Below, piece by piece: positions 22,187 to 63,567 of a stretch of 64,000 bases of DNA (positions within the stretch are counted from its first letter, which is position 1; each line of letters begins with the position of its first letter). Source of the stretch: Ptychodera flava (lineage: Eukaryota; Hemichordata; Enteropneusta; Ptychoderidae); the NCBI RefSeq assembly GCF_041260155.1, contig NW_027248393.1:248001-312000 (forward strand), read 5' to 3'. Made by a program: the position numbers and the translations under genes. The notes below the pieces were generated by a model that had not been told where the DNA came from, ran no database searches, and saw nothing but the letters and a program-made list of their open reading frames with translations.

Positions 22187-22211
22187 CATCTCGACTACGA
22201 CTAAGTTACGG

Positions 22212-41819: not shown

Positions 41820-42168
41820 TCAATTTGGCTTTAACTCATCGTTATCGTCCGTTCTGCGTTCAGTATCGTGAGTGAGCTCCCAGTAATCATGATCCGATGC
41901 CTGATCTTCAACGCGAAGGCTTTTGTATAGCGAAACGGGAATATTTCTCAACTCTGTGTATGAGTCCTCTGGTGGGTGATTCCCATTGCCTCTTGGAGTG
42001 AGACTCTGGTACGCATGCTCAGGAAGGCGATTGCTTTGTAACAAATCTGTATACCCGGACTGGTCTGCAGAAATGGGTAGAGAAGAAACATTTCCATTCT
42101 CGGTTTGGTACGGCGGTGCAGGGGTGGCATATTCATGGTTAGCATCCTTTCCTTCCCTTAGATTTTTT
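41820..42168 (-). CDS. Receptor A, last exon: cytoplasmic tail with five YxxL motifs
   Basis: A 349-nt exon after acceptor GTGTTCATTTACAG, entering in phase 2, with a TGA stop at 41820-41822. The 115-residue tail has tyrosines in YTDL (39), YQSL (53), YTEL (70), YKSL (81) and YWEL (95). The YTEL and YKSL motifs are separated by seven residues, which fits the ITAM pattern YxxL-x6-8-YxxL. SGYTDL and SLYKSL fit the ITIM consensus S/I/V/L-x-Y-x-x-L. Such motifs bind Syk/ZAP-type or SHP-type SH2 proteins after phosphorylation; YxxL can also act as an endocytic sorting signal. The tail is otherwise hydrophilic and acidic at its end (TERRTDDNDELKPN). Its function as a signalling tail is inferred. 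Confidence 0.82.
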
Positions 42169-43229
42169 CTGTAAATGAACACAATAAAGACAGTCAATAG
42201 TGATGGACTTTTTATTGAAATTATTCTGAAGGTGGTGTTATTGACATTTGTAGTTTCCTAATGTGCCAAGTCTGACATCGAAGGATTGAGCTCGAGCTCA
42301 CTCGTGCTGTTTTCTGACCATCATCATACATCCTTCTATAACAGTTAAAATATACAAGTGCACATTATAAAAAACTGATGTCCTGCATATCAGAAAAAAA
42401 TAAACCGCAAGGCTTGTAGGATACGAAGTCAACAGTTTGCCCTTGGTTGCCATTTTCAATAAAATTAAACATTTCTTTAAGTTGTGATCTTTGTTCGATT
42501 TGAAAATCATGTTTTCTTATTTTAGACATTCGAATCAGTGAAGAATTGAAGTGTCTGCTTTTTTCTTTCTAAAGGGCAATCAGCAACATTGCGACATCGC
42601 TACTCCAGAATGTCTCTGGTTGTATTTTTAATGAAAAAACGTAAATGCTTTGTGATCTTTAAGCTCTTGTTGGATATTGAGGTTTGGTTCCTAATCTCAC
42701 AGAGACACTAGTAATTCATCAGCACAAGCGTCGACGTCGTTGCAAGTTTTACGAAAAAGGGTTGAAAGTTTGCACTTATATATTGCCCTTCATGAAGTCA
42801 ATTATATATTATCGTTGAAGCCTCTATGATAAGAGAAATTTTAAATTTAACCGCCTCTCTAATTATAGCAGGACAGGAGTGTTTCTTAAACAATTAAGTG
42901 AGTTTGCTCGTCAAGTCAGTAAGGTTTAAATATTTGAGCAAATGTCTATGCAACATCGTTAAAGAGGATTTCTGTAACCTGTATGTGCAGTAGCGAATCA
43001 CTTTATTTGTTTGACTAAACGAGCACAGGGGTGTGTCGCAGATAGCCGATACTGTAAAAAACAGAGTGAATTCCTTGCGCATTTGATGGTGACACATATA
43101 CAAACTGCGATTGTATTACTAAATGTGATGTATAAATTTTGTGGCGTATCATTTGGCAGTAAATCGGAATCCGTATAACTCTCTATCGACGAAAATTCAT
43201 AGCTTTGATTAATATTTAACCATTCTTAC
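42169..43229 (-). other. Receptor A intron between transmembrane and tail exons
   Basis: 1061 bp from donor GTAAG (at 43229) to acceptor ACAG (at 42169). Parallels the 924-bp intron of receptor B (50561-51484), with shared blocks such as 'ggggtgtgtcgcagatagcc' and 'ttgcgcatttgatg'. No exon seen inside. Confidence 0.7.
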
Positions 43230-43308
43230 CTCCTACACCACAGAAGGACCGCTCCTATTACCAAGCCCACTGTCAATAATGCCAGTGCACTAACTACAGA
43301 GATAATGA
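43230..43308 (-). CDS. Receptor A, transmembrane exon
   Basis: A 79-nt minus-strand exon between a short GCAG acceptor and donor AG/GTAAG. Phase 1 in, phase 2 out. It codes a helix (IIISVVSALALLTVGLVIGA, then VLLWCRR) that ends in basic residues and runs into the tail's KNLR. The cysteine just inside the membrane could be palmitoylated. Receptor B's exon at 51485-51563 has the same length and phases. Confidence 0.85.
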
Positions 43309-43655
43309 CTGCGAAGATAAAAAAATATAACGCGAAAGCCGAGGTCAAGTTTTACCATTATTAACGCTTTAACCTCCACTCTGAATATTTTCAGGTTTCT
43401 CTGCAGCGAAACACATGAACCTCTGCGTTTACGCTTTGTTGTGACATTGTCTTCATTATCAAGACTCACAAACATGAACATTTTGAATAAAATCCTTCCG
43501 TAGCTGTAAGACCATGAAGACTCACTAATATACGAACCCCCTTCCTTTCATCTAACATTTGGGAGTAATTACACATTCCCGAAACCCCATCGCGCCGATT
43601 AGAATAGTATTTAAAGTGACGAACAATAATGACGTAAAAAGAGGTGTATGCTTAC

Positions 43656-43952
43656 TGATGCTATTCCCAGTCGAACTTTGCTCGGTCGTTGCTGGTGTTT
43701 CTGACTTCATTGAAGTCAGGCCGAAAGTCGTTGACCTCGACCACGTTAATGTAATAGCTTTGTGCGTTGGCTCATCAGTCTTCAGTGTCCTGACATCAGT
43801 AGTTGTTGCTGTACTGACCTCCCCTGAGGAAGGGGTTGATATTGTCGTACTGGCGGGAGTTGAAAAGTACGAACTGAAGGTGGATGATTGGGATATCTTA
43901 GCGGTTGTTGATGGATTGGGTCGTTGCGTTGTCGAGAGAGTCTCGTTTTTCA
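43656..43952 (-). CDS. Receptor A, Ser/Thr-rich stalk exon
   Basis: A 297-nt exon on the minus strand, acceptor TTTTTTACAG and donor GTAAGC, phase 1 on both sides. About half the residues are Ser or Thr (LSTTQRPNPSTTAKISQS..., ATTTDVRTL, PATTEQSSTGNS), with scattered Pro: a mucin-like, O-glycosylated stalk holding an ectodomain off the membrane. It aligns end to end with receptor B's stalk (52283-52651) without gaps after the STTQRP block. In A the upstream part of the stalk is displaced by about 1.15 kb of other DNA (43953-45110). Confidence 0.78.
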
Positions 43953-45110
43953 CTGTAAAAAATCAAAGGCAACTAAAAAACATAAGTTTATGAAATATTA
44001 TTTCTGAATTGACTAAGCTTTTACCTGTGCTTTATACACGACGTCTTGATTACAATAACTGACGAATAACCTTTATCGAAAAACAGTGAACGATTACCTA
44101 CAAACCAGAGTGTTTGAAAGCGAATACAACGACTCACAGAGGCTAATTCTTAAACAGCATGTTATCTTTCAAGCGCCATAGTTTTACAGGGTTGTGGTCG
44201 TAATTATGTTTAATTGTAACTGATATTAACAGATTTAGTAGGTATAATAGGTTTCCTTGAAGCGAACTTTATATAAATGCTTTGACCACAGGCAACAGAG
44301 TGTTTTCCTTTACCCGGGTACTAGCGCCGGGTACGTCGAACTAGTACACGGCTTTAACAGCAAGTTAAGATGAATATCGTAATATGGGTATACTTGTATT
44401 TTAAGAATACTGATTTTGCTTATAGTTGACGAAAGACGAAATCTGTCTGTATTTTCACATTGGATACTTTATTTCTTGTATAATAATTTTTTCTTCAAAT
44501 GAACGTTAGTCTGACAAATTTCGTCCGGACTGAAAGTACAGGGCAGATGGAACTAGTACAACGTTCATGTCAGTTGACATAAAAGTGTGAAGAAAATGAA
44601 GGCGAGTCCCGATCGTGCACCCATTTGTCTAGGCGTTTGATCAATTTAAAATTTTTAGATTTGGAATCCCTTTTGAAATGCCGGTCAAAGTTCTTTGATA
44701 TATGGAATAGAGTTGCATCTTAAATATGATAAAGATCGTTTTAAAAGTTGTTTGCCAAAGTATTTGGATTTGCCCACACGGCTGGGTTCAACCATCATTT
44801 AGCGATTATTTCTACAATGGCACACGAGTAACTTTACATAATGATTTTCGTGGCCCGACGATTCATTTTCTTTCATATCCAGGACTGTCAAAGACCATTG
44901 ATGTTAATTATTCGTTGCATGTTTCATTCTTTCTTTCTTCCAGCTTACAGATATACTCCTTCATTTATATTCTTGCCTGTCATAACGTTTGAGTGGAGTT
45001 TGGCTTCGGAATAAATCTGCAAGGGAATGTATCATGACATTACCGCATAGTTTCCTAAAATTTAATTTGAGTGTTCGTCCATGTATGCCAAAACCCAATC
45101 TAGTCCTTTT
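43953..45110. other. About 1.15 kb in receptor A absent from receptor B
   Basis: In receptor B the coding sequences on both sides of this segment are adjacent within one exon. Here they are separated by AT-rich DNA that supplies the TTTTTTACAG acceptor used at 43953. It could be an insertion in A that became an intron, or B could have lost an intron. No coding sequence or clear terminal repeats seen. Confidence 0.6.
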
Positions 45111-45202
45111 CGTCAAAGGACTTGGTACAGCAGGTGGCTGGGGAAGGTTGAATGGTGGCAAACGTGCACAATGTGTACAAATAAGGAACATTCTCGATGC
45201 CT
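45111..45202 (-). CDS. Receptor A, upstream stalk segment (partial, donor unclear)
   Basis: After acceptor ACATAAACAG the minus strand codes (in phase 1) a stretch ending FLICTHCARLPPFNLPQPPA. It is equivalent to LLCHCARLPPPPPLPPAVPV in receptor B and to CTRCRRLPPFF in receptor F. Similarity to B stops near 45110. I see no strong donor there, so whether this piece still splices to the stalk exon at 43952 is uncertain; receptor A may be damaged. Confidence 0.42.
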
Positions 45203-46149
45203 CTGTTTATGTGTTGAAGACCATAGATCTGTCAATGTAACCTATAGGACGAAAGAGAAATATTTGGGTTTTATTTAATCTTTGATACAAAACTACACTT
45301 TAACCCTTCACTAGTAACTCATTGTCCTAGTTCTTGTATTGCTTCTTTGTACCTGCAGACAGTGTTCAAACACATTACTCATTTAAATTTATGATATTCA
45401 AATACTCCGAATTTCTTACACCATGCACCGTAAATTTGCATATGTGACAGTGTAGAATTATCTCAGGCCATGAAACATAATTTAATACGTCATTTAATAT
45501 GAACATTGTCTAACACAGAATGTTATTAAATATGGCGCATGTTGACAAGAAGCAAATACGATTTTGTAACACTGTGCGAGTATGAGCGCTTCATGAACTC
45601 TATTGCGTGTGGAGCGATCGCTGTTAGAAAATTTATAACAACTTAGCTCGGTTATTGAACCACTCTTTTTAGAGGTGGGGGAGGGTGGCCGAGCGGTTTT
45701 GACTGTGATTTATTCGCTAAGTGACTGGGTGCCGAACGTTGTGAGTTCGATTTCCTGCTTCCTGTTGGTTTTGAAAGGTGAGAACATAGAACGTATATCC
45801 AGCTGTCCTTTAATTGACCGCGAAGAGCAATAGCTATTTCGTTTCGTCGACAGTTGTTCGCTACATTATCTTACTCTTAGAAATTATTCAAATACGTACT
45901 TACACGGTAGTATGACAGAACCGACGTAATGAAATGAATATTAAGTTCCCGTCTTTGTAATCAGGTTTGATGTAGGATAAAGTCACTGTCTTCTCATTCG
46001 CTAAAGGTTCTACTTCGGAATAAAAATGACGCGATGTGTTCAACAGACTCAAACGTCAAAAAGGTCACGTGATGGCAGTACAAACAAACGCATGTGTACA
46101 AGCGTGTACAGCAATATAGACTGTCGACAGTCCTTGTGACCTTTCTGTC
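45203..46149. repeat. Receptor A upstream block, duplicated at 52740-53640
   Basis: Shared pieces include 'tgggttttattgaat/tgggttttatttaat', 'gaccgtgaataacaa/gaccgcgaagagcaa', 'cctgcttcctgttggttt' and 'aaaaatgacgcga'. Should hold upstream parts of receptor A, but I could not identify ectodomain or signal-peptide exons. Confidence 0.7.
45670..45765 (+). pseudogene. tRNA-Leu/Ser-like sequence (degenerate)
   Basis: 'GGTGGCCGAGCGGTTTTGAC' fits an internal A box of a class II tRNA, and 'GAGTTCGATTTCC' about 60 bp on fits a B box with a mismatch. The acceptor stem does not pair well. A more decayed copy sits at 53205-53280 in receptor B's equivalent block, so it was duplicated with the receptor. 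It may be a dead tRNA gene or the head of a tRNA-derived SINE. Confidence 0.4.
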
Positions 46150-47240
46150 TCTTATTGGTGTAGTCTTTAGCACGTAAGACGGTGGGGGGGGGGGGAATCG
46201 CACGCGTGGCGCCGAAGGCGGGAGCTTGGCATTCCGAAAGTATACGTTGACACAAGGGACTGTTATCTGCTGCAGGAATTGGGTTGCTATTAATTATTCA
46301 TAAGGTATGACATCGAGAAAAGGGCGGAGACAAAGGACGAAATTTGCCGGCTGTCGCCATCATGGGTTTGTACTGTTTCCAATTGGCTATACAGTCATCG
46401 GTGACCATAGGGGTAGCTTTTGTGTCCGTCCCTAGGGGTGGGTAGGTGTTTTGTTGTATTGCCAATAAAGGTTTATTCTGCCAAACTTTGGTGTTCGGTC
46501 TTGCACTGCCCTTGATAATTTTGCGTAAACGTTTTATCAGCATGCTGCATCTATCATCTAATCAGCTTGATTGCCTAATTCGCCAAGCATGTAAGGTAGT
46601 AATTTAGTCTATTATCTGATGAGTTTGAGTGCCTAATTTGCCAAAGTGAGCAAGGGTAAATTACTTATCTGTGGACGCTGTCACCAGATTATCACCGGAT
46701 TAACTTTGACAAAGTCAACAACGAGCGTACCAGCAAGTTTATACCTTGCTGGTACTTCGTTGTTGACTTTGTCAAATTTAATCCGGTGATAATCTGGTGA
46801 CAGCGTACACAGATTAGTAATTTACCCTTGCTTACTTTGGCAAACTCATCAGATAATAGACTAAATTACTACCTTGCTTGCTTTGGCGAATTAGGCAATC
46901 AAACTAGTCATATAATAGATGCAGCATGCTGATAAAACGTTTACGCAAGACCAAAACAGCAAAGTTTGGTAGTATAAACCTTTATTAGCAATACAACAAA
47001 ACGCTACCCACCCCTGGGGACGGACACAAAGGCTACCCCTTATGCGGTGACCTGCGACCATCTTCACCTGTCAATCATTTGCTCTGCGTTAGGTTACAAC
47101 AGGGTTTCCCTGCTGATGTCGCTGAGGGCGCAGCGGAAGACAACAGCCCTCGTGCCTTACGGCACTTGCCGCTCGCTTGCGATTGCCCCCACCGTCCTGT
47201 ATGCGAGAGACTACAGCAATAATCGTGATCAGTCTAACAG
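46150..47240. repeat. Large foldback, arms about 330 bp plus outer similarity
   Basis: Reverse-complement arms meet at about 46738 (accagcaagtttataccttgctggt). Each arm carries 'gtcaccagattatcaccgga', 'tagtctattatctgatgag', 'ggcgaattaggcaatcaa' or its mirror, and 'aaaacgtttacgcaa'. The arms are clear from about 46405 to 47045. Beyond them, 'tgtagtctttagcacgtaag..ggtggggg' (46158) mirrors 47160-47230. The element sits where receptor A's block departs from receptor B's, so it inserted after the duplication or was lost from B. Confidence 0.88.
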
Positions 47241-47257
47241 AAATACTATATGGCGTC

Positions 47258-47540
47258 AAATTGCCCCACGCCAGGAGGCCAAACCGTCTCCAATGCTACA
47301 AGGGCACATAAACCCATGTATTCTGGCAATGATATCTTTATTACACGCCTCTTCAAAGTTAAATGCAGGGAATTCTTAAACAATTTTACCATTATCGACT
47401 AGCATGAAACAAGTTTTAACGAAAATCAAAATAGCAGAGTGCGCATTGATATTTTACATCTAGCGTTCAGCGTCTACTTTAATGTCGAAAACGTTGAAGG
47501 GCTACACCGTACCGGCTAACAATGGAAACCGGTAAGTATA
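47258..47540 (+). repeat. Second copy of the 31830-32120 dispersed segment
   Basis: Same order of shared blocks as at 31830-32120, without the left arm of that copy's foldback. About 12-15% diverged. Confidence 0.85.
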
Positions 47541-48440
47541 GTTCGCATGGAGGGTCTTATACTTGAGTAGGGTCTTATAATCGAACGAGTACGATAGTGT
47601 GTTGTTTACTTATATACTGGTCAAAGACTAGTAGTGTACATGCGAAACAGTTCTCGCGCTAGTCTTTCGCTGCAATCACAGTGGAAAAAGAACAATGCTT
47701 AATATCCTAATATGTTTTCTATCCTAATATTTTACATTAAAGTCTCATTCAATAGTAAGCTTCATCGTAACTACAGTCTGTGAAATCTTCCGTACTGAAA
47801 GGTTATTTCTCGCGCATGCACTGGCAGACGATAGTTGGTAATTGCTCAGAAACGAAAGTATTACTGTTTACCCGTGCTCGTAAGGTTATGAAGTTAAATT
47901 TTCGCGCAAATGCTGGCAGTATGAGTGCGCATCGGTGAAAGAAACTTTAGTACATAAGAATGATAGTCTTGTCGCACTGATGTCAACTACATGTAACAAG
48001 TTGACCCACTTGATTTATCATGATGCGTACCAAAACTCAATATATGACCATTATATCCTGTGCAGGAGTAAACTTCCGCATAAGTTAATAATGCCAGCCT
48101 TACATGCGGGTCAGTGTCCTTCAAACATAATTGAATGCGACAATGATGCTTTGCTGACAATATATTCTGATTAATATTCTGCTGCACGAAAAATAAGGAA
48201 TAAACAATTCAGCTTGTATTCAGCAGGCCTGTATTCATGTAGACTCCTGTGAATTCATGTGTATTATTCTATCAATACAGGCAACACAGTAAGTGTAAAT
48301 TTATCTGTATTATCGCCTTTTGATGTTGCATAAAAATACCATCAAAGTTGGACAAACAAATCAAAATGCTACTGTTCCTATTGGGAACGTAATCTTGGCT
48401 TTAGTTAAGCTAACAACGGAATCAAACCAAGAGGTTAGTT
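47541..48440. repeat. Receptor A far-upstream block, duplicated at 53720-54430
   Basis: Shared blocks: 'gttctcgcgctagtctttcg', 'gtggaaaaagaacaatg', 'cgcataagttaataatgcca', 'cagcaggcctgtattcatgt' and 'ttatctgtattatcgccttt'. The sequence 'caaaccaagaggttagtttg' at its right end recurs at about 57322 and 61606. Coding content unclear. Confidence 0.75.
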
Positions 48441-48804
48441 TGCTTCATGGGTTTGCTGTTCAGCCGGTTGCGTACACGTATACCCGTATGGGGACGATGT
48501 TGAAGTGGGGGCGGGCCGGGTTGGGCGCAGGCCGTGGTCTCTTGTGTTCATATCGAAGCCATTGTATTCACGTGGGTGCGCCGCTGCTCTAAATTATGAC
48601 AGAAAAAAATGTCAAAATTTAGAAAGCTATGGGATTTAATGCGACGGAAACAGAGAATCTCACAGCCTGAAAGTTCGATCATGTGTATAATCACAGTCCC
48701 TCTGACCTTGTCTGAGGTGAACGACCCGACATGACTTTGTAAAACATATTCGTGATTGGCTAACCCTAATGATATGCTCTTATGAATAATTAATTAACCC
48801 CCTT
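48441..48804. other. No gene seen
   Basis: Short stretch with a G-rich segment (48500-48550) resembling 61630-61690; no coding support. Confidence 0.4.
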
Positions 48805-49080
48805 TCATAGTTTCGCGGTTTCCCAGCGTTATCTGCCAGAGTTTGATTCTTGTGTAGCAGAGCGAAAATTATGCTCTGGTTCGCGAGAATGCTCTCTGCT
48901 AAATGGCTTGACCCTTTGAACCCGGCTTGCAAAAAATGTTCGTATGACGTCATAGGTCACCATGGGGTCAGGGTGCATTCTCGCGCGCCAGAGCATAATT
49001 TTCGCTCCGCGGACCTACGCAAAAATCAAGCTCAGGCAGCTTATATTACGCTTGGAAACCGCGGAAATTAATAGAAGCTC
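48805..49080. repeat. Foldback, arms about 85 bp
   Basis: 'tttcgcggtttcccagcgtta' and 'agcgaaaattatgctctgg...cgcgagaatgc' on the left (48811-48893) are mirrored on the right (48980-49068) as 'gcattctcgcgcgccagagc', 'ataattttcgct' and 'gcttggaaaccgcgg'. No coding sequence. Confidence 0.88.
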
Positions 49081-49986
49081 TTATGGACGCAGTACCTAGT
49101 TTATAGAACGAAAATGCACTGACAAAGCGAAATTCCGGGGTCTCACTATTAACCACGTGACATAATCGTCTAGTATTCAAAGGTAAAACTACCTTTCTAG
49201 GTTATTCTGCCATTGCTTAATCATTCAAATAAGTAAATAGCAATTGGAGAAAGCTTTTTATTGATAAGCAAATAAGGGTAATGAAAGTGATCTACTAAAT
49301 GTAAACATGACCTTGAAAAATGTTCTTGACTTATCCAAACTACACTTATTCGAAAATAACAACTTTATCATCACATGCACGCGTACGGTCTTGCGACATC
49401 CCTCAGCCTATCGTGTTCGACACGAACTGTGTAGTTTTTACACATCATAAAAAAAACCTAGATGTTATTCCCCTAAGAACGTGTTCACTATGATTAAATC
49501 GAACCCTGTTATATTCGACAAAAGAGGGATTTACAAATCCCTCTCACAAGAATCCGTTTCGAATCATTGTTACTTTTATCTTCTGTTACCAGATTAGGAC
49601 GGCGTCATGATTGAGTCTAAACATCTTTGGAATTTGGCATTTGCGACTCATTTAATACAGCTAGTTTTAACTTCAAGTCTACTGATTGTCAACCTTCACT
49701 TTTCGGTTCCTCTTCAACTTTCGTACTACCGATAATACAATGTAATAATCCATATAAGATAAACTGTGTTGAGTATTTTGCGTGTTCGTGACATTAGCAA
49801 ACAAAGCGTGTACGCGTTACAAACATCAAACATTGCAGGCTGCCATGTTGCTCATATGTCTTTCTGAAGTCCTCGCTAATGTGTACTTCATGCAAAGATT
49901 TCGTTTTTAAGTTACGTAACACTTCAAAAATATTAGGGTCGGGTAACCGAAACCATATTAGATTTATTTCGCCTGTTGTCTGATAA

Positions 49987-50077
<91 letters not shown>

Positions 50078-50110
50078 GTACTATCTCTGCATATGACATA
50101 AAACGTGGCC
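49080..50110 (+). repeat. Duplicated receptor 3'-flank block (copy 2, beside receptor B)
   Basis: Diverged partner of 36990-38000, lying just beyond receptor B's stop. Contains the long (GAT)n run. Confidence 0.6.
49987..50076. repeat. (GAT)n microsatellite, about 30 units
   Basis: Uninterrupted trinucleotide run 136 bp past receptor B's stop codon. Poly-Ser and poly-Ile frames across it are artefacts. The equivalent site near 37850 has only a few such triplets. Confidence 0.98.
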
Positions 50111-50211
50111 CAGGCGAAAATGATGTTGTTAGTGTATGAACTGTACAAGTAACCTCTAAATGTGGAAGACTAGATACATGTACAAGAAAGCTAATCCGAT
50201 GCTCATCTGCG

Positions 50212-50560
50212 TCAATTTGGCTTTAGCTTATCGTTATCGTCCGTTCTGCGTTCAGTATCGTGAGTGAGCTCCCAGTAATCATGATCCGATGCCTGATCTT
50301 CAACGCCAAGGCTTTGGTATAGCGAAACGGGAATATTTCTCAACTCTGTGTATGAGTCCTCTGGTGGGTGATTCCCATTGCCTCTTGGAGTGAGACTCTG
50401 ATACGCATGCTCAGGAAGGCGATTGCCTTGTACCAAATCTGTATACCCGGACTGGTCTGCTGAAATGGGTAGAGAACCAACATTCGCCGTCTCAGTTTGG
50501 AACTCATGTCCAGGGATGGTATATTCATTGTTAGCATCCTGTCCTTCCCTTAACTTTTTC
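50212..50560 (-). CDS. Receptor B, last exon: cytoplasmic tail with five YxxL motifs
   Basis: Acceptor AATTTACAG, 349 nt, phase 2 in, TGA stop at 50212-50214: the same length and structure as receptor A's tail exon. The tail reads KKLREGQDANNEYTIP and keeps YTDL, YQSL, YTEL, YQSL and YWEL at the same positions, with YTEL-x7-YQSL as the ITAM-spaced pair. The membrane-proximal third differs clearly from A. The last 240 nt or so, covering all five motifs and the first bases past the stop, are about 97% identical to A. The reading frame is intact. Function inferred as a signalling or endocytic tail. Confidence 0.85.
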
Positions 50561-51484: not shown

Positions 51485-51563
51485 CTCCTACACCTCAGAA
51501 GAATCACTCCTATTATTAAGGCCACTACCAATAAAGCCAGTGCACCAACTACAGAGAGAACGA
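51485..51563 (-). CDS. Receptor B, transmembrane exon
   Basis: A 79-nt exon, acceptor CTTCTCAG and donor AG/GTAAG, phase 1 in and phase 2 out. It codes IVLSVVGALALLVVALIIGV followed by ILLRCRR, a transmembrane helix with a basic cytoplasmic edge and a conserved membrane-proximal cysteine, as in A. Joins in frame to the stalk exon (52283-52651) and the tail exon (50212-50560). Confidence 0.85.
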
Positions 51564-51913
51564 CTGAGAAGGTAAAAGAAAATAAATGTAAAAAGTATTA
51601 TTGGTTATTCTCGCATGTTGCGTCAATGTCACGTTTTACCCTTATGAACGTTTTCATCTTTACTCTGAATAATATAATGTATCTCTGCAGTGAAACGCTT
51701 GAACCTGCGTTCATGCTTCGCTGTGATGTCATCTTCATTATCGAAACTCACAAAATGCACATTTTGAATTAAACCCCTTGGCTATAAATCATGAAGACTC
51801 GCTTATATGTGAATCTCTTTGCTTCCATCTAACATTTAGAAATAATCTTAATTCTTCAAACTCCATTGCGCCGACTGGATAAGTACAATAAAATTTGACG
51901 AACAGTTATTACG

Positions 51914-52266
51914 TTAAGGTAGAATGCGCGTCGGGGACAGAAATTCAAGCTTTAAAATTTCAACAATTCTCCTCTGATCTACCACTTGTGGGGGTTCATT
52001 TTAAACTTCTTGATGAAAGAAAAGTTTTTATCGTCTTATTTTTCAAAAATTTATTTTTTTGCTCATAGAGTTAACACAGGGATGGTGGCCATTTTAAATT
52101 TCAAATATCGGTAAATCTTCTGTACTTTTGTCTCCATAGTACCATAATTTGCACCATGACCCCCGATTTGTATTCTTGATTTTCAAAGAAAATGGATGAA
52201 AGATTACTTGAGGAAAATTTGAGCAGAAGTTTAAGTCTCTCGGTTTCGAGGCGCATACTACCTTAA
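51914..52266 (+). mobile_element. TTAA-flanked MITE inside receptor B's intron
   Basis: TTAA at 51914-51917 and 52263-52266; body of 345 bp starting GGTAGAATGCGCGTCGGGGA and ending GAGGCGCATACTACC. Receptor A lacks it at the matching place (gacgtaaaaagaggtg near 43632), which shows a single target copy there and two in B. It ends 17 bp from the stalk exon's donor site. Confidence 0.9.
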
Positions 52267-52282
52267 AGAAGTGCATGCTTAC

Positions 52283-52651
52283 TGATACTATTCCCAGGCG
52301 AACTCTGCTCGGTCGTTGCTGGTGTTTCTAATTTAATTGAAGTCAGACTGGAAGCCGTCGACCTCGACCACGTTAATGTAATAGCTTCGTGTGTTGATAC
52401 GCCCGTCTTCAGTGTACTGACATTTGTAGTAGTTGCTGTACTGACCTTCCCTGAGGAAGGGGTTAAGGTTGTCGTACTGGCGGGAGTTGAAAAGTACGAA
52501 CTAAAGGTGGAGGATTTGGATATGGTATCCATTGTTGATGGATGTGGTCGTTGCGTTGTCGAGGAAGTCGAAGGAACTGGTACGGCAGGTGGGAGTGGCG
52601 GGGGAGGTGGCAAACGCGCACAATGGCAAAGGAGGGTCATTATCGATGCCC
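52283..52651 (-). CDS. Receptor B, stalk exon (Pro-rich start, Ser/Thr-rich body)
   Basis: A 369-nt exon, acceptor ACTAAAACAG and donor GTAAGC, phase 1 on both sides. It begins GASIMTLLCHCARLPPPPPL, then a Pro-rich run, then a long mucin-like Ser/Thr region (SSTFSSYFSTPASTTTLTPS, ATTTNVSTLK, PATTEQSSPGNS). About half of that region is Ser/Thr, so heavy O-glycosylation is likely. The CHCARLPP start is kept in receptors A and F. Exon and phase agreement with A is exact at the 3' side. Ectodomain exons further upstream were not found. Confidence 0.78.
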
Positions 52652-54430
52652 CTGTTTTAGTGTCGAAACAAATGTTCATTATATCGCTTACTCCTGTGTT
52701 CAAAGTTAACGTGTCCCTGGAGTCAAAGATCTGTTAGTGTAACCTATAGAAGGAAAGAAAAAAATATTTGGGTTTTATTGAATTTTTGACACAAAACTAC
52801 GCTTAAAATCTTCAATCGTAACTCATTTTTATATTTCTTGCATTGCTTCTTTGTATGAGTGGACTTTGTTCAAACAAATGACACCATTATTTATGAAATT
52901 CAAATATTCCAACATTCTGACACCATGCACGGTACATTCACATATGTTACAGTGTAGTAAGAATTATCTCAGGCCGTGAAAACGTCATTAGGCAGTGTTC
53001 AACTCAGAACGTTGTCTTAAATATTTAGCTTTGAAAGTAATTTTTTTCGAATTCCTAATCCCTTTAAAATTTGTGTGCGATGTGTGATAGCGAGTATGTG
53101 AGTGTGAGCGCCTCGTGAACTCTACAGCGCGAGGAAGGGTTGCGATAAGAAAAATTGCAACAGCTTAGCTCGATAATTGAACCGTCCCCTTTAAGGGTGG
53201 GGGTCTTGGCCGAGCGGTTTTGACTGTGATGTCTTCGCTATGAGCTCGAATACGATCGAAACTCTATGAATTTCCTGCTTCCTGTTGGTTTCAAAGAGTA
53301 GGAATATGGTACCTATACCTAGTTGTCCTTAAATCGACCGTGAATAACAATACCTTTTTTATTTCGTCGACAGTTGTTAGTCATGTTGTCTTACTCTTAC
53401 AGATAATTAAAATACGTACTTACGCGGCAGAATATATATAATACATATATCAAGGTCCCGTCTTTGTACTCTAGTTTGATGAGCGATAATGTTATTGTAT
53501 TCTTATTTGCTTGAGGTTTCCTCCGGAATAAAAATGACGCGACAGGTTCATCAGACTCGGCACGCCCAAAAGATCACATGATGGCGGTATAAGCAAAGCC
53601 ATGTGGACAAGCGCGTACAGAAATACATTTCTATGCGCGTTTGCGCTCGTGAGTTTGTTTGTACTGTGGGTCCATTCGAATTCCGGGTTTGACCTATTGC
53701 GCCACAGCCCCGGTTCTGATCGGGTAGTGTGTTGTTTCCTTGTCTACTTGTCAAAGACTGGTGTACATGCGAAAACAGTTCTCGCGTTGGTCTTTCGCTG
53801 CAATCGCGATGGAAAAAGAACAATGTTTAATAACCTAATATGTTTTCCTTTAAGTCTCATTCAATAGTAAGCTACATCGTGACTATCGCCTGTGATATCT
53901 TCTGCTCATAAGTTTGACATTATATTTTCGTGCAAAGACCGGGTATGCGTGCGCTCCGGTGCAAGAAACTGTGCACACGTAATAATGATTGCCTTGTCGC
54001 ACTGATGTCAACTAATAAGTTGACCCAAGTGATTGATGCGTACCAAAACTCAGTATATGACCGTTATATTCTGTGGAGGGAGTAAACTTCCGCATAACTT
54101 GATAATGCCAGCTTTACATCCGGGTCGATGTCCCTCAAACTTAATTGAATACGACAGCGATGCTCTGCTGACAATATGTTCTGATCAATATTCTGCTTCA
54201 CCCAAAATAAGAAAAATAATTCAGCTTGTATTCTGCAGGCCTGTATTCATGTGGACTCCTGTGAATTCACGTGTATTATTCTATCAATACAGGCAACACA
54301 GTTAGTTTAAATTTATCTGTATTATCGCCTTTTGATGCTGCATAAAAATACCATCAAAGTTGAAAAAACAAATCAAAATGCCAGTGTTCCTATTGGGAAC
54401 GTAATCTTGGAGGTAATAGTTAAAGGCATG
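52652..54430. repeat. Receptor B upstream block, duplicated in receptor A
   Basis: Matches 45203-46100 and then 47580-48430, skipping the foldback and dispersed repeat present in A. This is the region where upstream receptor exons should lie. I could not identify a signal peptide or domain. Confidence 0.7.
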
Positions 54431-54599: not shown

Positions 54600-54960
54600 G
54601 GTAAAGTCTATAATGAAAGAATTTATAAAAATACTTCTTTAGTGAAATAATACTTTGTCTTGTAAGCCAAAATTGCAGAAATATTACGCTAAAATATTGA
54701 GTCTGATGTTATAAATTAGTACGCCACCAATATTGTGTGCTAGTACGACAAAAAAGGCGGTGAAGTCAGCAAGTTTCTTGTAATAGACAATTTACTGCAA
54801 CTGATAACTAAATCAAGGGGATAAAATTCTAAATTATCAAGAAATCGCGATGTATGTGTTTAACTATGATGGGACGGTACAGGACTCCTCTCAAGCAATT
54901 TCAAAGTGATTAAGTTACCTGTTGTGTAAATAGATGCGTCCCTCTGGCATCGTCGTAAAC
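54600..54960 (+). repeat. Start of a third 3'-flank block
   Basis: 'gggataaaattctaaa...tatcaag', 'gggacggtacaggactcctctcaa' and 'aaagtgattaagt' resemble 36835-36955 in the same order. Marks the beginning of the next duplication unit toward receptor C. Confidence 0.6.
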
Positions 54961-56610
54961 CACCCACCCCTTTGCGGCAACAGCTTGGCAATACCCGCAA
55001 AAATGCCATGGTTGATTTCGAAGAGATTCGTTGATCTATCGCTGGTTTAGAGCGCTAGCTGAACGGAGCCAATCAGAAAGTCCGTCTCATAAAACCGTAT
55101 ACATTATTATAATTACTATTATATTATATCATGCTACCATGCGCCATTCTGATTGGACGAGAGCGATGCTAAAATATTGTTTTAGCACTGATAGCAGTGG
55201 TAAAACGGGCCCCTAAACAAGCATTTTTGAAAAATCCCGGTCGGTGCATTTGAACGATGTGGCTCTGAACTTAATCCGAAACAGTCCGCTTTGTTTTAAA
55301 GACCGAGTTCGAATTTCGATACAGAGATAAAGTATGGGTCTGTAACTCACCTCTTTGTGAAAGTAAGCGGTCGATGATGAAAGAAATCTCCGAAGCAACA
55401 CATATATTTTGGTATGATAATGTACGAAATTGTATAGGGTAACAGCGCACTGTGTAGTTTGCTTGATCGATTCAGCAGGAGTCGAGACGCGACATACCGC
55501 TCTTTAAAACGAAGCTACTATTCGTTCATACACAAATAAATTGAAACTTCCTCACAGTAACGGTACGTCAGATATTCCTTCCTAAAGTTGGGCTGTAACA
55601 GACCAGGGTGTTCTTACGATGTAGTTGTAGCCCAAGAATTTGAAGAAGTTCAAAATAACAATGCGATCATTCCTGGCGACTGCGACGAAAATCGCTGTGT
55701 CAGCGTCCAGCTCTCGCTGAATCGGGCAACACACTCTGCTCGCATATTACAACTATTCATACAGTCGCCGTAATCCATGTCTGGATTATTTCAAAACTGC
55801 ACGTTTTCTGGCACAAATTATCCATCCAAAATATCCATCCAAAAGAGAACCTGTAACCCCACTGCACCATCTCCTCTGTCTGAATGTTACGACGGTTGGC
55901 GCACATCGGACTGACAGTGAATGAGACCAATCTATTTTTAGTGTACTACGCCAAAAAAAGTCAGCGCTATTGTTTTTATGTAAATTTACGAAAAAAATTG
56001 TTACTTTTTCTTTTGCTTTGAACTCTTGACCCATTTCTGTGTCTGAAGCAGTTCGTGTTGCATGTAAAATATTACTGAAATTTTGATGAACGTAATGCGT
56101 ATGTTATCGTAGGATATTGTGTTCGTGTGTTGTCAACGTAATCCAAACTTATAAAAATGCTCGGTCTCGGGCGATGATTTTCCGACGTTCGATCTCTCAG
56201 ACGTCCGTTTTCTGCATTTTGGGCTGAAACTGACGAAAATGCCGGACCAAGACGACAAAGACACACAAGTTGATATAATATAATAGCAATAACCCCTTCG
56301 CAGTCGGGTATACACTCGACTTTGGTACAATTCGCTCCATATAGCACGCGCCTATCGGCTGTATCTGCGCGTTCACTGTAGAACGGTTTCAAGGGACCCT
56401 TGGATGGATGCCAGAACAAGTCTCGCGCGCGCGCTCTGTACGTACGTATGTGTGTAGTGCACACACTCCAAAACTTGCAGAAGCGCGTCCGAGGTAGCGT
56501 TCCACACTGGCGCGATAAAATCGGAAGAAAAATTGTTGACATTGCACGAAAACGGTTACTACTCCGACATTTTGATGCCCCGATCAGGAATGTAAGATGT
56601 ATAATAATAA

Positions 56611-56737
56611 GGTTATTACGAAAATACCGCAAAGGATGCACGAGGACATTGGCGCCGCGCATCGCCCTCCGCTTCGCGTCGGGCGATACGCTGCGCCAAT
56701 GTCCTCGTGCATCCTTTGCGGTATTTTCGTAATAACC
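56611..56737. repeat. Palindrome with 45-bp perfect arms and 37-bp GC-rich loop
   Basis: GGTTATTACGAAAATACCGC begins the left arm (56611-56655), and its exact reverse complement ends the right arm (56693-56737). The loop itself is GC-rich and partly self-complementary (catcgccc...gggcgat). Confidence 0.95.
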
Positions 56738-56989
56738 TCATAGTAGCAATACACAACGATGGATGATCTTAGTGCTCACGCTCACTGGCGACAAAGAGCG
56801 CGCGCTGTGTAATGTTTTTGGACACAAACAGCTATATCCACACCAAATAGACATCATAAATATATTTTTTAGGAAAATACGATTTTCTTTGCACAAGGAC
56901 GTCGGCAAGCAGTGGCAAGTCTGTATTCTACCAACCAATGTGGAGCAACCGGCCACACGCCTCGCTGTGTACAGTTGCCGTCCCAGACG

Positions 56990-57420
56990 TAGTACAACAC
57001 CGCTGTGTAAAACCCGTTGGCCAAACCATTGATAATGAATTTCCTTTTAATACTACAAGTTATGTATAAACGTTTATGTATCGATTCCTTCATTTAAGTT
57101 CACACTGACAGCTTTCTTATCGTGCTGTATGTATATTCATGGAGCTGGAAAACGTATGAATGATATAGAAATGTCCATGAGGAAGCCTAGTGGTATCGCT
57201 ATACGCTAGAGTCCGATCGTCTCTACAGCCAAAATCACAGTCCTCGGCAGATTGCACAGTTGCTCAAGTCCGGTTATGTTTCATTAATTCATCACCAAAG
57301 TTAAGCTAACAACGGACTCGAACCAAGAGGTTAGTTTGCTCATTTGTTCAATCACAGTCCTTCTATCCACTGGTTCAATATGAAGTGCAAAGTTATTTGA
57401 GTGGTAAAATACCTGATACA
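56990..57420. repeat. Segment repeated at 61275-61640
   Basis: Shared blocks: 'accattgat.ataa', 'ttcatttaagttcaca/ttcatttaggtttatg', 'tccgatcgtct', 'acagccaa.atcac' and 'gaaccaagaggttagtttgc'. Part of the receptor duplication flanks. Confidence 0.65.
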
Positions 57421-57669
57421 ATTCATTCACTTGTGACATGTTTTACGGGTATTTGAAGTAGGACAGGCACCACTAATGCCAGGGATAAGAGTGTTGCTGC
57501 AATAATTTCCCTATACTTCGCCGAAGTGTTCTTACGGATGTGCCAAGCGTATCGTACTACGGTATCCTGGTTGTGTTCCATGTCACAGAGCATGATCCGC
57601 CGCCTGAGATTCCGAACTAAGACTTGACATGGCGCCATACCAGTATTGCACAATTATGTGCTTAGACGA

Positions 57670-59500
57670 CAGGTGATTATGATATGACCTGGACTCTATT
57701 GAATGGTGACCGGTACATATCCATACTAGAGCGATGCTCTGTCACCAGGTGTGAATACCTCAGCTCCATGGTCTGTACGTAATAGAGCGATGTCGTGCAA
57801 TGCTGAATCAAGGTTTGATGTCACAAATATCATTTACATTCCTTTTTAGTCGGTGTTACGTTCTTTCTTTCTCTTGTTCGCCGTATTCGTCTTAGAGAAT
57901 CTCTTCTTATTATTGCCGTATACTACGGCGCTCCAAATGTTTCAAAAGTATCAATCGTTACAGTATAAAAATCAACTCAATTTTCTGTCTAGATAAATTC
58001 TTAAACATGTCTAAATATCGTAGAAAAATCATTTTGTCCATATGATTGCATTTTATTATTTTAACTTTTCATGAAAATGGCATTCAGCTTAAAATATATG
58101 GCAAATGTCATCAACAGATGGCATGCAACTTTATTTTGATTGAAATAAAAATTATGTGAAATTCAAAACAGACTAGTTGTCTAAACAAATAAACAGACAA
58201 AAATACAATCTTATAAAAGAAACGTAAGATAAGAATATCTTTTTGACAGTCAAACCGAATGTGGTTTGACATTTCAACGTTTTTTGGTCATAGTTTGTGT
58301 CTGAATGGCAGTAGTAGTCTTTTTTGTTTTTAATGATTTTTTTTATTGTATCTTTGTGTATGTTTTGTTGGTTTTTTGAAGATAATTTACCGTTTTTTGT
58401 AAAATCACATTGCCCTTTTTAACAAATTAATGCATATGCATTTAAAATTAGTATGTGTGTATGATTTTTTCAAAGTCGTTGTAAAGTTAATTTTGCTATA
58501 TCTTTCTTAATTCTGTTATATCTTGCTATCTTTATTCTTCAGACGATTCTAAAATATGACTTACAAATTACTATTTTATATTATTTTCTATCATTTTCAA
58601 TGAGACATTTATTTATTTTTAAAGTTTGCTTTCTTTAATCCGCTAAGTTTATTTTAATCGAGAAACACGGAAGTTTTATTTCACAAATTCTTTATCTGTA
58701 CCTATATTTAATAATACTTCCCATATATTTTAAGATAAGTGTTATTTATATGAAAAGTTGCATTAATAAAATGCGACCTAATGGGCAAAATAGCTTTCTC
58801 TGCATAATTATACGCGTTTAAGAAGTTTTTCTGAAAGAAAAATTGACATTTCATATTTATACTCTTACAATTACTATTTTTGACACATTTGGCACGCCCT
58901 ACATATACACTAGAGTATATTTACACAATAGTAAGACTACACAGTAGAAAAGGGATCGAAATTACTTGTATGACAACTTACGTTACCCAACCAACGTGCA
59001 TCTATTCTCGACATATTAATAATGAAATAAATTACATAAACTGGGAATGATACTTTTTCTCCGTATCTTATTACAGTTTTATTTTCGATGTGAATTTTTT
59101 CCCGCTTCATCCAGATGGCCTTCGTCTAGGTGCCAATTTAAAGGACCACAATACAATTATAATGGAACTAAGACATGCAAAACAAGCTGTGGCGATTCAA
59201 ATAAAAGTGAACTAATCCCACTCCTAGGGTCTCCTTCGAAGGTTCATCATTTTGTGTAACGTACGTTAGGGTCGCTAGGGAATTTTACAGCATCTTGAAT
59301 ATTATTTCCGTCTTTATGTCAGTTAAGTATGTCACATCCAAGTCGTTGCTATGCAAATCACAGCTAACGTGTATTCTTACGGTACATGGTCAAGCCAGAG
59401 GTCGATGACCTTTGCCGGGCAATACTGTAACGACAATCACTGTACATATGTTATATTTCGAAGACAAATTGTTAAAGCCCCAGTATTTGAAACTTTTAAC
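57670..59500. repeat. Receptor C 3'-flank block, first half
   Basis: Parallels 40230-41230 beside receptor A, with about 1 kb of very AT-rich DNA (57960-58990) added. The second half of the same flank continues at 62607, after about 3.1 kb of other DNA. No gene seen. Confidence 0.7.
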
Positions 59501-60159
59501 CTTTTTTATGTTCGAAATTACATGTTATTCCCTTACATCCATCGTGAAATGTTGTTCAGTGAAGAAATAAGCCAAATTTGTGCTCCTGTAGTGACATACA
59601 AACGCTAAATATTGCCCGATCGAGTTGGATTGCCGCGCGGGTTTGTTGACAACTTGTAGGCTGTGCACGTGACCGAGAACGCCGATACTGATGACATCAT
59701 TGAGCCTGCAACATTCCAGGGGCCATGCCGCCACACCGCCTGGGTAATCGCCCACGGTCGCCGGCTGAATGACCTGCAAATGGTTTTATTTTGTTCTTCT
59801 CTGTTCAAATACGTACTGCTACTGTGTTTCAGAGAATACAGAACTTTGGTAGAGGAGGCTGACATTCTATTCTGGTACCGTGTGCGTTATATACGGATTA
59901 TTCAAACTGCAGTCGGCAGTGCACCGATGCGCACCCTGCAGTTGGTCACTCCCGGGTACCGATGTAAAATCAAGACGACACTATATACACTAAGCTCACT
60001 TCTGTAGGCAAATAGCTATCAAAATTGAGTAACTTGAAGTAATAAATTTCAGCTGATTGTTGCTTTAGCGGCAAGGTGATTGCAAAATCGAAGCAACATA
60101 GTTTGGCAATGTATGGTAGGCTGTCGAATGCAGTGAACGCGATGGCCCTTGGCAGCAAG

Positions 60160-60932
60160 TAAGGGATCAGTATTTACGACCTGGGGGGTATCGTAAAATT
60201 TAAAGCTAATAAGGGGTGCTCAAAATGTTTTTTCTTTGTCTTACTCTGTGCTCAATGACATAATGATTAGTTGATAATATATATTTTTCTCTGATACATG
60301 TTAAATAAAAAGAAAATAAATACTCTAACAGAACAAATATCAGCTCGAAGCAAGGCAAAAAAACTACAAGTAGCTGCTACTACTAGCAATACTTATTATG
60401 AAAGTCTTAGAGAAGATAGTGACGATGAGAATGATATCGTGTACTCAATGGCACCAGCGACAGTAAAGATGACCATCGACAGTGGTGATGATGATGTCAC
60501 ACAGTATAGTTTTCTACAGTCGTTACCAGAGGTGGAAGGAGAGGCTTGGTCATGGAGAAATGTTCTCGACAGATATCACTATAAGTGCACAGGATGTAGG
60601 ACAAAACTGAACTGTTGTGAATTCATCCTTTATTTATCATAGAAATGTAAACTTTAATTTACTTGAGTTCAACAACCATTTGACATTTAACATATACCAT
60701 AATGACATGCTACCCATCCAAAATTTAACGATACTATATGGTTGGAGACTGGTTATTAGGTGAGCTTTTATATCTACATGTTGTTACATGGGCTCAGGTA
60801 AGCCAAAATTTATGTTAGAGGGGGGGGGGGTTACTCAAAGTCATCATGGTTGGCTGGGGTGTGACTCAAAATTTCATAGTTTCTAATGTAATTCCTCCGA
60901 CCCCCAGGTGGTAAATAATGACGTCTCCCTAA
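60160..60932. mobile_element. Harbinger-like non-autonomous element with TAA target duplication
   Basis: TAA at 60160-60162 and 60930-60932 flank ends GGGATCAGTATTTACGACCT with GGGGGG on the left and CCCCCAGGTGGTAAATAATG with ACGTCTCCC on the right. These ends are imperfect inverted repeats of about 30 bp, alike in style to those at 24308-26780. It contains a 114-codon plus-strand frame but no recognisable transposase. Confidence 0.6.
60298..60642 (+). CDS. Hypothetical acidic open frame inside the Harbinger-like element
   Basis: A 114-codon frame with protein-like composition: a basic start (LNKKKINTLTEQISARSKAK), an acidic middle (LREDSDDENDIVYS, TIDSGDDDVTQYSFLQ) and an end with EGEAWSWRNVLDRYHYKC and two CxxC-like cysteines. 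It could be a fragment of an accessory transposon protein or a captured host exon. I do not recognise it. Confidence 0.35.
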   Translation: MLNKKKINTLTEQISARSKAKKLQVAATTSNTYYESLREDSDDENDIVYSMAPATVKMTIDSGDDDVTQYSFLQSLPEVEGEAWSWRNVLDRYHYKCTGCRTKLNCCEFILYLS

Positions 60933-61274
60933 ACAGCTGTGAACGCCCGAGTCAGAACGATCGGACCAGTATACGCACGGCTGATATCTCAGCGAAAATT
61001 TAGAAAAAACAATGGAGCTACTGCTAAGAAATTTACAGACTCTTGGCTTTTGATGCATCAGTTTTTGAGCTTTTATACTGGTAAAAAGGCATTCTGAATA
61101 CAGCGGTAAATTTCCTCCCAAACGCGAAAGGCGAACACGCGGTCATTCTGCAATGACGCTGTCAACTTTACCTTGCTGCAGGCCCCACACCAAATCTCGA
61201 TCCCGGCCCCGCCGCACTTGTACAGTCTACTACCTCCATGTAGTACAGCCTTACAGGACTAGTAGCCAGCCAAA

Positions 61275-61640
61275 CGCAAAAAAAAAAAAACAACGCCGCA
61301 GTGTAAAATCCGTAGGTCAGAACCATTGATCATAAATTTTCAGAACCAGTGATGTTTAAAAGCTTTGTATTGATCACTTCATTTAGGTTTATGTGAATGA
61401 CTTTCTCATCGAGCTGCGTCTATAATTGTCCGGGCATTGTCCATAATTCCCGGGCATTGTCCATGCAAATTTGGGGCCTGCCTTAGCTCCCTCCGATCGT
61501 CTGTAGACTACAGCCAATATCACGTCTTAAGCAAATTGTACAGTTGTGAAAGTCAGATATATATATATATCATGAATTTTATACAAAAAATATGTAAACA
61601 ACAGAATCAAACCAAGAGGTTAGTTTGCTGTCGGGCCGGG
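61275..61640. repeat. Second copy of the 56990-57420 segment
   Basis: See 56990-57420. Ends with 'caaaccaagaggttagtttg', also present at 48428. Contains a short (AT)n run near 61557. Confidence 0.65.
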
Positions 61641-62606
61641 TGCGCAGGGGGGCGACTTTGCAGTGAGGCCGGGATCTCCTGTGTTCAAACTGCTACCATG
61701 CCTGGAGCTCCATCGCATCGCAGCCAGCCGATAATTGCACCACTGTAGTCCTTGTGAGGATTAGATGCCCGTTACGTTCGATGTTATTTGGAAATACTTT
61801 TAAATTTAATAAGTAAGACATTTGTTCTGCATTCAAGATATAATTTTTCCTTTCTGAGCATTTTCAATTACGGCAACGATATGCGAAGTTGATAGGCTGT
61901 GTTGCCTGCAGCGCGCAGCGTAGCCTGGCCGTACACAAACCTTCGTTTGAGTAGACGGAGCAGAATCAGTCCCGTCATTTATTTTCAACGAAATTTTCAT
62001 TATATTCCATAATGGAAGAAACGACTAGTTCAATGATTACAATGGTGAAGTGTTGAATTTTTATTCATATATGTTTTTCTCCTGATTCTCTCTAAATTCA
62101 TTCAGCAAACTTGATCTCCGTACCGTCGGTCACAGCGTGCAATGCCTTGCATGAAGCTTACAATCGACTGCCCCCGTCGCTGGTTTAGCTGTTCAAGACG
62201 TTTGTTTGCACGGCTCATTATAGTCGGAACAATCTATAAACACTTACACATTTATATCTTTCCGGTATTTCACCCAACTTTCGCGCGTTTTTAGTTGAGT
62301 CTCAGTTTCGATGGACCAGACCTTTTCGAAGAGCGTAAGTTTCTATGGACGCCACAGTCAAACTTGCGTAGATGTGGTTGAGCATGCGCGGTGGTGTGAT
62401 TACGTTTCGTTTCGTGTGTCAACAAAGCCTTACTTCTGGTCCGGACAAGAAGTCATTTTTCACTCCTTTTACTGTTAATCGTGAGGCGGGCTGGGCATGC
62501 AAACCATGAGATTCAGTATTAATTATGGTCTACTTTCACATACTGAGGATGTCATTTAGTCAAAATATGAAAAAAAAATGTTAAAAGTTACAAATACTGG
62601 GGCTTT

Positions 62607-63227
62607 AAACAAGAAAAGTAATACTGCTGGGGAACGCTTCCAACCAATGTCTTAAGTAAATATCAAGACTAATATCAAGACTAAAACTTACAGAACAGTA
62701 ATCAATTTATTGTGAAATGTAAAAAATTTCAATGAGAAATCAGTGCTCTGTTTAAATCCGTTCTGATAAATGTATCGCTTTTATTATACAGTTTCATTCA
62801 AAATTACAATCGACAGAATTTACTGTACTGAAAATAATATTTGCTTCAATCGGAAGACCTAATTCGGTGCAACCTGAATACAATTAGTGGGTCAGCTATG
62901 TAATTAGGTATGAGAAGATAAAACCAACTATACATTTCCCGCCTAGAGAAACACTGCGTAAATGCAGGGTGTATATCAAATTCCTTAAAAGTTATACTAA
63001 CGCCACGAGGATTGGCGTTTTGATAACCTAATGACAGATGTCCAACGTCACTCGATTAATAAATCTTGAAGTAAGTTTCATTGTATAAAATGATATCTGA
63101 ATTCTAGTCGGCGAAAATGCAGTTTTAGCGTATAAACTGAACAACTAGTGCTTGAATGTGGAAGACTTGATAAGCGGACAGAAAAATGATTCGATATTCA
63201 TTTGGCTCAATCTATCTTTAGCTCTTC
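62607..63227. repeat. Receptor C 3'-flank block, second half
   Basis: Aligns with 41215-41819 beside receptor A ('ccaaccaatgtctta', 'taaatccgttctgataaatg', 'aatgcagggt'), leading straight to receptor C's tail exon as in A. Confidence 0.7.
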
Positions 63228-63567
63228 TTATTCGTGTGTTGTGAGTTCACAATCGAAAGTAAGCTCCGTGTAGACATGATCAGATGCCTGTTCTGTAAAG
63301 TCAAGGCTTTGGTACGGAGAAACAGGAATAGCTGTTAATTCTGTGTATGAGTCGTCTAATTGGTGATTGTTACCATGAGTCCCATTGCGTCTTGGAGTGA
63401 GACGCTGGTAGGCATGCTCAAGAAGGCGATTGCCTTGTAACAGATCTGTGTAGCCGGAATGGTCTGCGGAAATGGGTAGAAAGAAGCATTTCCCGTCTCA
63501 GTTCTGTTCGCCGGTACAGGGATGACATAATCATTATTGGCATCCTGTCCTTCCTTTCTTTCTTTTT
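63228..63567 (-). pseudogene. Receptor C, cytoplasmic-tail exon, frame disturbed
   Basis: Acceptor TTCATTTGTAG and TAA stop at 63228-63230. The distal 80 codons or so are open and homologous to tails A and B (DHSGYTDLLQGNRL, EHAYQRLTPRR, DDSYTELTAIPVSPYQSL, DHVYTELTF). They keep all five YxxL motifs and the x7 spacing of the YTEL/YQSL pair. The first third is in a different frame: relative to B there is one extra base near the acceptor and one base fewer about 90 bp on, and the phase used by A and B meets a stop. Either C is a recent pseudogene, it uses another phase, or there are errors in the A-rich run. Its transmembrane exon would lie beyond the window. Confidence 0.7.

Follow-up and report, generated by a model that had tools for sequence, protein, structure and literature searches.

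A 64,000-nt stretch of the Ptychodera flava genome (RefSeq assembly GCF_041260155.1, contig NW_027248393.1, positions 248,001 to 312,000), referred to below as the window, was analyzed for a group of membrane-protein genes with five YxxL motifs in their tails. The window was taken to be animal genomic DNA because it contains intron-bearing exons and a TRIM-NHL gene. The minus strand was found to carry a real tandem set of membrane-protein 3' ends, two of them intact-looking (A and B) and two broken-looking (C and D), and this observation largely holds. The preliminary description of this DNA was correct with regard to the exons and motifs of A and B. It needed amendment because C is probably broken, because the tails fit the immunoreceptor tyrosine-based activation and inhibition motifs (ITAM and ITIM) to a limited extent, and because a Cys/Pro hinge and a likely relative, E, had not been listed.

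Tandem stalk, transmembrane and tail exons

The exons of A and B and the tail regions of C and D, numbered from the first base of the window, are as follows.

43656-43952, minus strand: A stalk exon, Ser/Thr-rich, 297 nt, phase 1-1 (splice sites and phase read from the sequence)
43230-43308, minus strand: A transmembrane (TM) exon, 79 nt, phase 1-2, hydrophobic run followed by CRR, AG/GT sites (hydrophobicity scan)
41820-42168, minus strand: A tail exon, 349 nt including the stop, 115 residues, five YxxL, one ITAM pattern and two ITIM patterns
52283-52576, minus strand: B stalk exon, Ser/Thr-rich, 294 nt assuming the AG at 52577-52578 as acceptor
51485-51563, minus strand: B TM exon, 79 nt, phase 1-2 (hydrophobicity scan)
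50212-50560, minus strand: B tail exon, 349 nt including the stop, 115 residues, five YxxL
63231-63567, minus strand: C tail exon, probably broken by a +1 and a -1 indel (start at 63567 read by eye)
34785-35048, minus strand: D, dead tail relic (tblastn match)

In both A and B, the internal splice sites retain AG/GT, the phases run 1-1, 1-2 and 2-stop, and the joined stalk-TM-tail frame is open and ends at the same stop. These features bear out the two complete 3' ends reported previously, and the reading of splice sites and phases confirmed that exon lengths (79 and 349 nt) and phases are equal in the two copies. The B stalk frame is open upstream as far as 52733, with the hinge described below included. 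The tails are spaced about 8 kb and about 13 kb apart. An AATAAA or ATTAAA hexamer, which is also expected by chance in AT-rich DNA, is present within 1.2 kb past the tails of A, B and C. The duplicated segment extends beyond the exons, as 45154-46116 corresponds to 52606-53625 (in two pieces) and 47595-48398 to 53725-54410. Apart from the hinge, these shared upstream stretches are non-coding in appearance.

When A was aligned with B, the introns contained 26 gaps in 1227 bases and the exons, over 722 bases, a single gap 3 bases long. If gaps were as frequent in the exons as in the introns, 10.6 of them would be expected to break the frame, whereas 0 did so (P = 2.5e-5; P = 0.0013 when 267 distal-tail bases were dropped). 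The ratio of nonsynonymous to synonymous change (dN/dS) between A and B was 0.50 in the stalk (98 codons) and 0.42 from STTQRP onward (Fisher p = 0.016). For the distal tail, it was 0.45 (A/B), 0.55 (A/C) and 0.48 (B/C). A and B were probably functional until recently and probably still are.

What C and D have in common with A and B is the tail region. In C, one base is added close to where the exon begins and another is missing about 85 nt further on, with three stops between them in the A/B frame. Its five YxxL motifs lie in a single open stretch (63231-63497) that is unreachable in the A/B phase from the exon start. The claim of a third tail stands for the five motifs, but the two indels and the three stops they enclose indicate that C is probably broken. 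An assembly error in C is possible, because the indels sit in an A-rich and a C/T-rich run. D contains two stops, and Cys replaces the Tyr of its third motif (CTEL), in agreement with its earlier designation as a dead tail. No stalk or TM copy belonging to D was found by tblastn.

Tyrosine motifs in the tails

Tails A and B both contain YTDL, YQSL, YTEL, Y(K/Q)SL and YWEL, with gaps of 10, 13, 7 and 10. The preliminary description had listed five such motifs for every tail, which is accurate for A, B and the open stretch of C but not for D with its CTEL. When tail A was shuffled 200,000 times, five YxxL motifs were reached in 10 cases, and the spacing YxxL/I-x6-8-YxxL/I arose in 1.1% of tail A shuffles. 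When stop-free pieces of at least 30 residues were scanned in six frames, the only other stretches with at least five Y-x-x-[LI] were tail C and four TA-repeat frames. Across A, B and distal C, all 10 motif Tyr/Leu columns were invariant, compared with 54 of the 79 columns overall (P = 0.017).

The tails were tested for the ITAM pattern [DE]x0-2YxxL/I-x6-8-YxxL/I and for the ITIM pattern [SIVL]xYxx[LVI]. The ITAM pattern, including its acidic lead, matched EDSYTELRNIPVSLYKSL in A and the equivalent stretch ending in YQSL in B. This is the sole ITAM-spaced pair (YTEL-RNIPVSL-YKSL in A, with YQSL in B), and its acidic lead reads EDSYTEL. The ITIM pattern matched two of the five motifs (SGYTDL and SLYKSL/SLYQSL), and one of these sites overlaps the second Tyr of the ITAM pair. 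The tails can be called ITAM/ITIM-like with respect to this pair and these two sites, but the other three of the four gaps depart from the 6-8 spacing. The letters of YxxL also fit sorting signals and engulfment-receptor tails.

The distal tails of A and B contain a tract of low divergence (42084-41838) in which 6 of 247 nt differ, compared with 22 of 102 in the rest of the tail exon. The nominal p of 2e-8 for this tract is too small because the best segment was picked. The tract points to gene conversion that acted chiefly on the YxxL part of the two tails, but recent shared descent combined with constraint may also account for it. Since the 3' parts of the A and B tails are unusually alike, the identical motifs located there are not independent evidence.

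Hinge, likely relative E and surrounding sequence

Upstream of A and B lie Cys/Pro stretches that read ICTHCARLPPFNLPQPPAVP and LLCHCARLPPPPPLPPAVP, respectively. A comparable stretch, FISCTRCRRLPPFFAPKPPDTP, precedes a further TM exon, that of E, whose phases match those of A and B.

45111-45203, minus strand: A hinge-like stretch EASRMFLICTHCARLPPFNLPQPPAVPSPLT, about 1.2 kb from the A stalk
52566-52652, minus strand: B hinge-like stretch GASIMTLLCHCARLPPPPPLPPAVPVPST, in frame with the B stalk
27656-27800, minus strand: E putative hinge/stalk exon (VTLRNMYC...CTRCRRLPPFFAPKPPDTPPHQPQPT), 145 nt, boundaries by eye
27055-27127, minus strand: E TM exon, 73 nt, phase 1-2
22212-22473, minus strand: E tail exon, 262 nt, without YxxL

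The A and B hinges differ in length by 6 nt, with a synonymous difference (pS) of 0.36 and a nonsynonymous difference (pN) of 0.20 (Fisher p = 0.15). Their protein alignment scored 92, whereas the best of 2000 shuffles scored 65. The A hinge may be lost, because a stop lies upstream in its frame and no good donor follows it. The E hinge scored 80 against that of A at the protein level (maximum of 2000 shuffles, 59), and the comparison with B gave p = 0.004. At the DNA level, its scores against A and B were within the range of 500 shuffles. The remaining likeness of E to A and B is weak (p = 0.15 for tail A, 0.047 for tail B and 0.064 for the B TM exon; 3000 shuffles). E is likely, though not proven, to be a diverged family relative without YxxL, a grade chosen because the hinge matches as protein but not beyond shuffles as DNA, and the likeness in tail and TM is weak. 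From phase only, the E tail is assigned to the E TM exon across a 4.6-kb intron.

Pfam was scanned with raw translations in three frames per strand, with stops as X, over minus 4001-64000 and plus 34001-64000. The only match above its cut-off on either strand was TRIM-NHL, which served as the positive control. Several matches remained below their cut-offs. C4_MG1 (minus 61726-61872; 14.3 and 16.4 bits, cut-off 21.4) crosses a stop and is probably a chance match, and NOA36 (plus strand; E 0.00056, 19.8 bits, cut-off 32.6) lies over an ATC repeat near 50 kb. Like these two, ZrgA, Zip, DUF3915, holin, QueF and Zn_ribbon_10 were judged to reflect chance or composition. Nothing exceeded the cut-off in the separate pieces or in the typed joined proteins. 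The sub-cut-off matches there were FISNA (C distal tail), RGS12_us1 (A stalk), Vip3A_N (B stalk), RIFIN (17.1 bits) and Protocadherin (15.3 bits) in the joined proteins, and Cadherin_C_2, TMEM154, EphA2_TM and others around the TM segment; Fe_hydrogense_Fe-S_bd matched a plus-strand open reading frame (ORF).

An exon search by simple scoring yielded nothing convincing, its thresholds exceeding what the known exons pass, and a second scoring gave few candidates and rated the codons of the known exons negatively as well. In the shared upstream block, an open run common to the copies spans 44 codons, against at most 43 in 200 shuffles; it was not counted as coding, because intron runs also exceed their shuffles. 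A laxer signal-peptide scan returned five candidates, all of them weak, of which three lie upstream of B and one each upstream of A and E. Signal-like matches were judged chance-like, because the one at 61326 lies on a T run and the whole window contains 12 on the minus and 10 on the plus strand. With tail A, the only tail used, a PDB search gave a single match (E 0.49), which was rejected, and a comparison of tail A with viral contigs revealed no relative. No tRNA was found in the window, and no Rfam family reached its gathering score. A literature search for pairings of two or more of YTDL, YTEL, YWEL, YKSL and YQSL found none.

The TRIM-type gene (11849-13873, minus strand) encodes a B-box, filamin and NHL repeats in a single frame of 674 codons. 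Its 3' end recurs as a diverged copy (21918-22187, 73% DNA identity) that adjoins the E tail. The ORF at 60295-60642 on the plus strand contains an acidic stretch resembling a tail (NTYYESLREDSDDENDIVYSMAP) and a single YESL; it has no Pfam match above cut-off and is a possible exon of another gene. The A and B units share a 197-nt block (48202-48398 and 54214-54410) at 94% identity, above the surrounding DNA, and this block has stops in the three minus frames; a regulatory element, a mobile element and a conversion tract are candidate readings. Copies of a dispersed repeat, at most about 365 nt long, occur at 51909-52271, 11377-11743, 14954-15327, 38617-38955 and 28905-29134, the first of them in the intron between the B stalk and TM exons, about 12 nt beyond the donor. 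Self-BLAST revealed palindromic, self-inverted elements resembling miniature inverted-repeat transposable elements at 46409-47040 (within the A unit), 56607-56741, 19050-19237, 3843-4277 and other positions. The inverted copies 35580-36501 and 883-1846, 79% identical over about 990 nt, are a mobile element candidate.

Interpretation of the gene set

The explanation that we favor, with confidence evenly balanced, is that A and B represent the 3' ends of genes for type I single-pass receptors, members of a family that has expanded locally and that probably signals through phosphotyrosine and Src homology 2 (SH2) domains. The predicted architecture is a Cys/Pro hinge, a Ser/Thr-rich and probably glycosylated stalk, a TM segment and a five-YxxL tail. 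The lineage-expanded receptor family proposed earlier is supported by exon structure, frames and motif statistics as a tandem family with ITAM/ITIM-pattern tails, but only two of its four copies look intact, and we infer the receptor role, like expression, phosphorylation, partners and any immune role.

Families of invertebrate receptors with such tails already exist. Botryllus FcoR genes encode multigene, locus-clustered type I TM proteins (53 loci so far) whose long tails carry ITIM, hemITAM or core Y-x-x-I/L/V motifs and whose ectodomains consist of Ig-V, sushi and Ig-C2 domains (PMC12065747). The same source describes the Hydractinia Alr candidate allorecognition genes as having ITAM/ITIM motifs. 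By tail pattern rather than homology, A and B would belong to this kind. The FcoR and A/B tails were compared by pattern, and no Ig-V, sushi or Ig-C2 match was found in Pfam over minus 4001-64000, although exons could be split or lie outside the window. ITAMs are also present in the tails of Draper and MEGF10, which signal through Src and Syk/Shark, with Src42a phosphorylation, Shark and Corkscrew acting in the case of Draper (PMC8092387). Draper/MEGF10/CED-1 receptors differ in their EMI/EGF-type ectodomain, for which minus 4001-64000 gave no match (exons beyond 64000 being outside the scan), and in their NPxY motif, absent by eye from the A and B tails. The amphioxus receptor BbLcLRR shares ITIM or ITIM-like tyrosines, which are phosphorylated by Lck and linked to SHIP1 (PMC8211107), but it has a leucine-rich-repeat ectodomain and other tail motifs. 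In arthropod Dscam, splicing yields tails with or without an ITAM (PMC6851185).

Tail phosphorylation and SH2 docking are predicted because the tails share patterns with Draper and BbLcLRR. Ligand binding or clustering would bring Src-family kinases that phosphorylate the tail, and the YTEL-x7-YKSL pair (YQSL in B) would then bind a tandem-SH2 kinase of the Syk/Shark type. The S-x-Y-x-x-L sites (SGYTDL, SLYKSL/SLYQSL) could recruit an SHP-type phosphatase, and one tail could thus yield both activating and braking signals. As judged from the pattern, the output through the one ITAM pair would be activating, with the two ITIM-pattern sites as a possible brake. By analogy with these systems, the signalling reading is plausible, standing about level with its negation.

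Several results weigh against the receptor family. In the Pfam scan of minus 4001-64000, only TRIM-NHL exceeded the cut-off, so that no ectodomain was recognized there, although split domains and unknown folds may escape Pfam and exons beyond 64000 lie outside the window. No convincing signal-peptide exon was found upstream of A, B or E. The stalk exons have poor splice scores (donor 0.0 in both, B acceptor 0.9), and codon scores relative to the TRIM gene, the one reference gene, were negative for the A stalk and A tail. With dN/dS of about 1, neither the TM exon nor the first 28 codons of the tail showed constraint. The distal-tail values are not significant alone for A/B (Fisher p = 0.38) and A/C (0.11), as opposed to B/C (0.027), and the likeness of the A and B distal tails was raised by the low-divergence tract and not by selection alone.

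Some of these points would also be expected if A and B, like the broken C and D, were decaying remains of a formerly functional gene that had lost its 5' part. The lack of a convincing signal peptide or ectodomain in the window scans, the dN/dS near 1 in the TM exon and proximal tail, and the A hinge with its upstream stop and no good donor after it are in line with such decay. However, the absence of frame-breaking gaps, the intact internal AG/GT sites and the stalk dN/dS below 1 oppose it, and we consider it unlikely.

Alternatively, A, B and once C could be alternative 3' signalling cassettes, rather than separate genes, that are spliced to shared ectodomain exons beyond 64000, which is likewise unlikely. 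The 6.2 kb between the B tail and the A stalk contain no recognized ectodomain exon, the shared upstream stretches look non-coding apart from the hinge, and the stalk and TM phases permit swapping. On the other hand, Pfam could miss ectodomains that are novel or divided among exons, the tails lie many kilobases apart, and the hexamers past each tail are what separate genes would show, chance permitting.

It is quite improbable that the tyrosines are YxxPhi sorting signals of a mucin-like, endocytosed surface protein rather than of a signalling receptor. All five motifs match YxxPhi as this pattern is generally known, and the stalk is Ser/Thr-rich, but five copies and an ITAM-spaced pair with an acidic lead exceed what sorting usually needs.

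PRiMA carries Cys residues and then poly-Pro near a single TM segment. It is the TM anchor of AChE-T (PMC3045457). The present proteins resemble it in the Cys/poly-Pro stretch near the TM segment. Pfam PRIMA1 (PF16101) matched the putative E stalk ORF with E 0.018 and 15.3 bits, below the cut-off of 38.6 bits for membership. Among six typed proteins, four gave 9.1, 9.8, 10.9 and 6.4 bits and two gave no match; whole E scored 9.1, the B hinge 6.4, and the A hinge gave no match. That a PRiMA/ColQ-like anchor, with C-x-C-x-R-L-PPPPPLPP tethering a tetrameric partner and no large ectodomain, is encoded here is highly improbable despite the recurrence of the hinge in A, B and E, as the score lies far under the cut-off, falls with added context and could reflect composition only, and as the five-YxxL long tail and Ser/Thr stalk set these proteins apart.

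A further and rather unlikely possibility is that the YxxL part was homogenized by gene conversion while the stalk, the proximal tail and the whole tail of E diverged, or that the stalk-TM-tail units form a tandem bank of interchangeable cassettes behind one ectodomain. If so, the set would be a counterpart of paired receptors outside the vertebrates, in which the Cys/Pro hinge is common to the members and the signalling tails are exchanged or lost. Near-identical distal tails on diverging stalks, together with a likely relative that lacks YxxL, would offer a test of tail sharing, conversion and loss in a receptor cluster.

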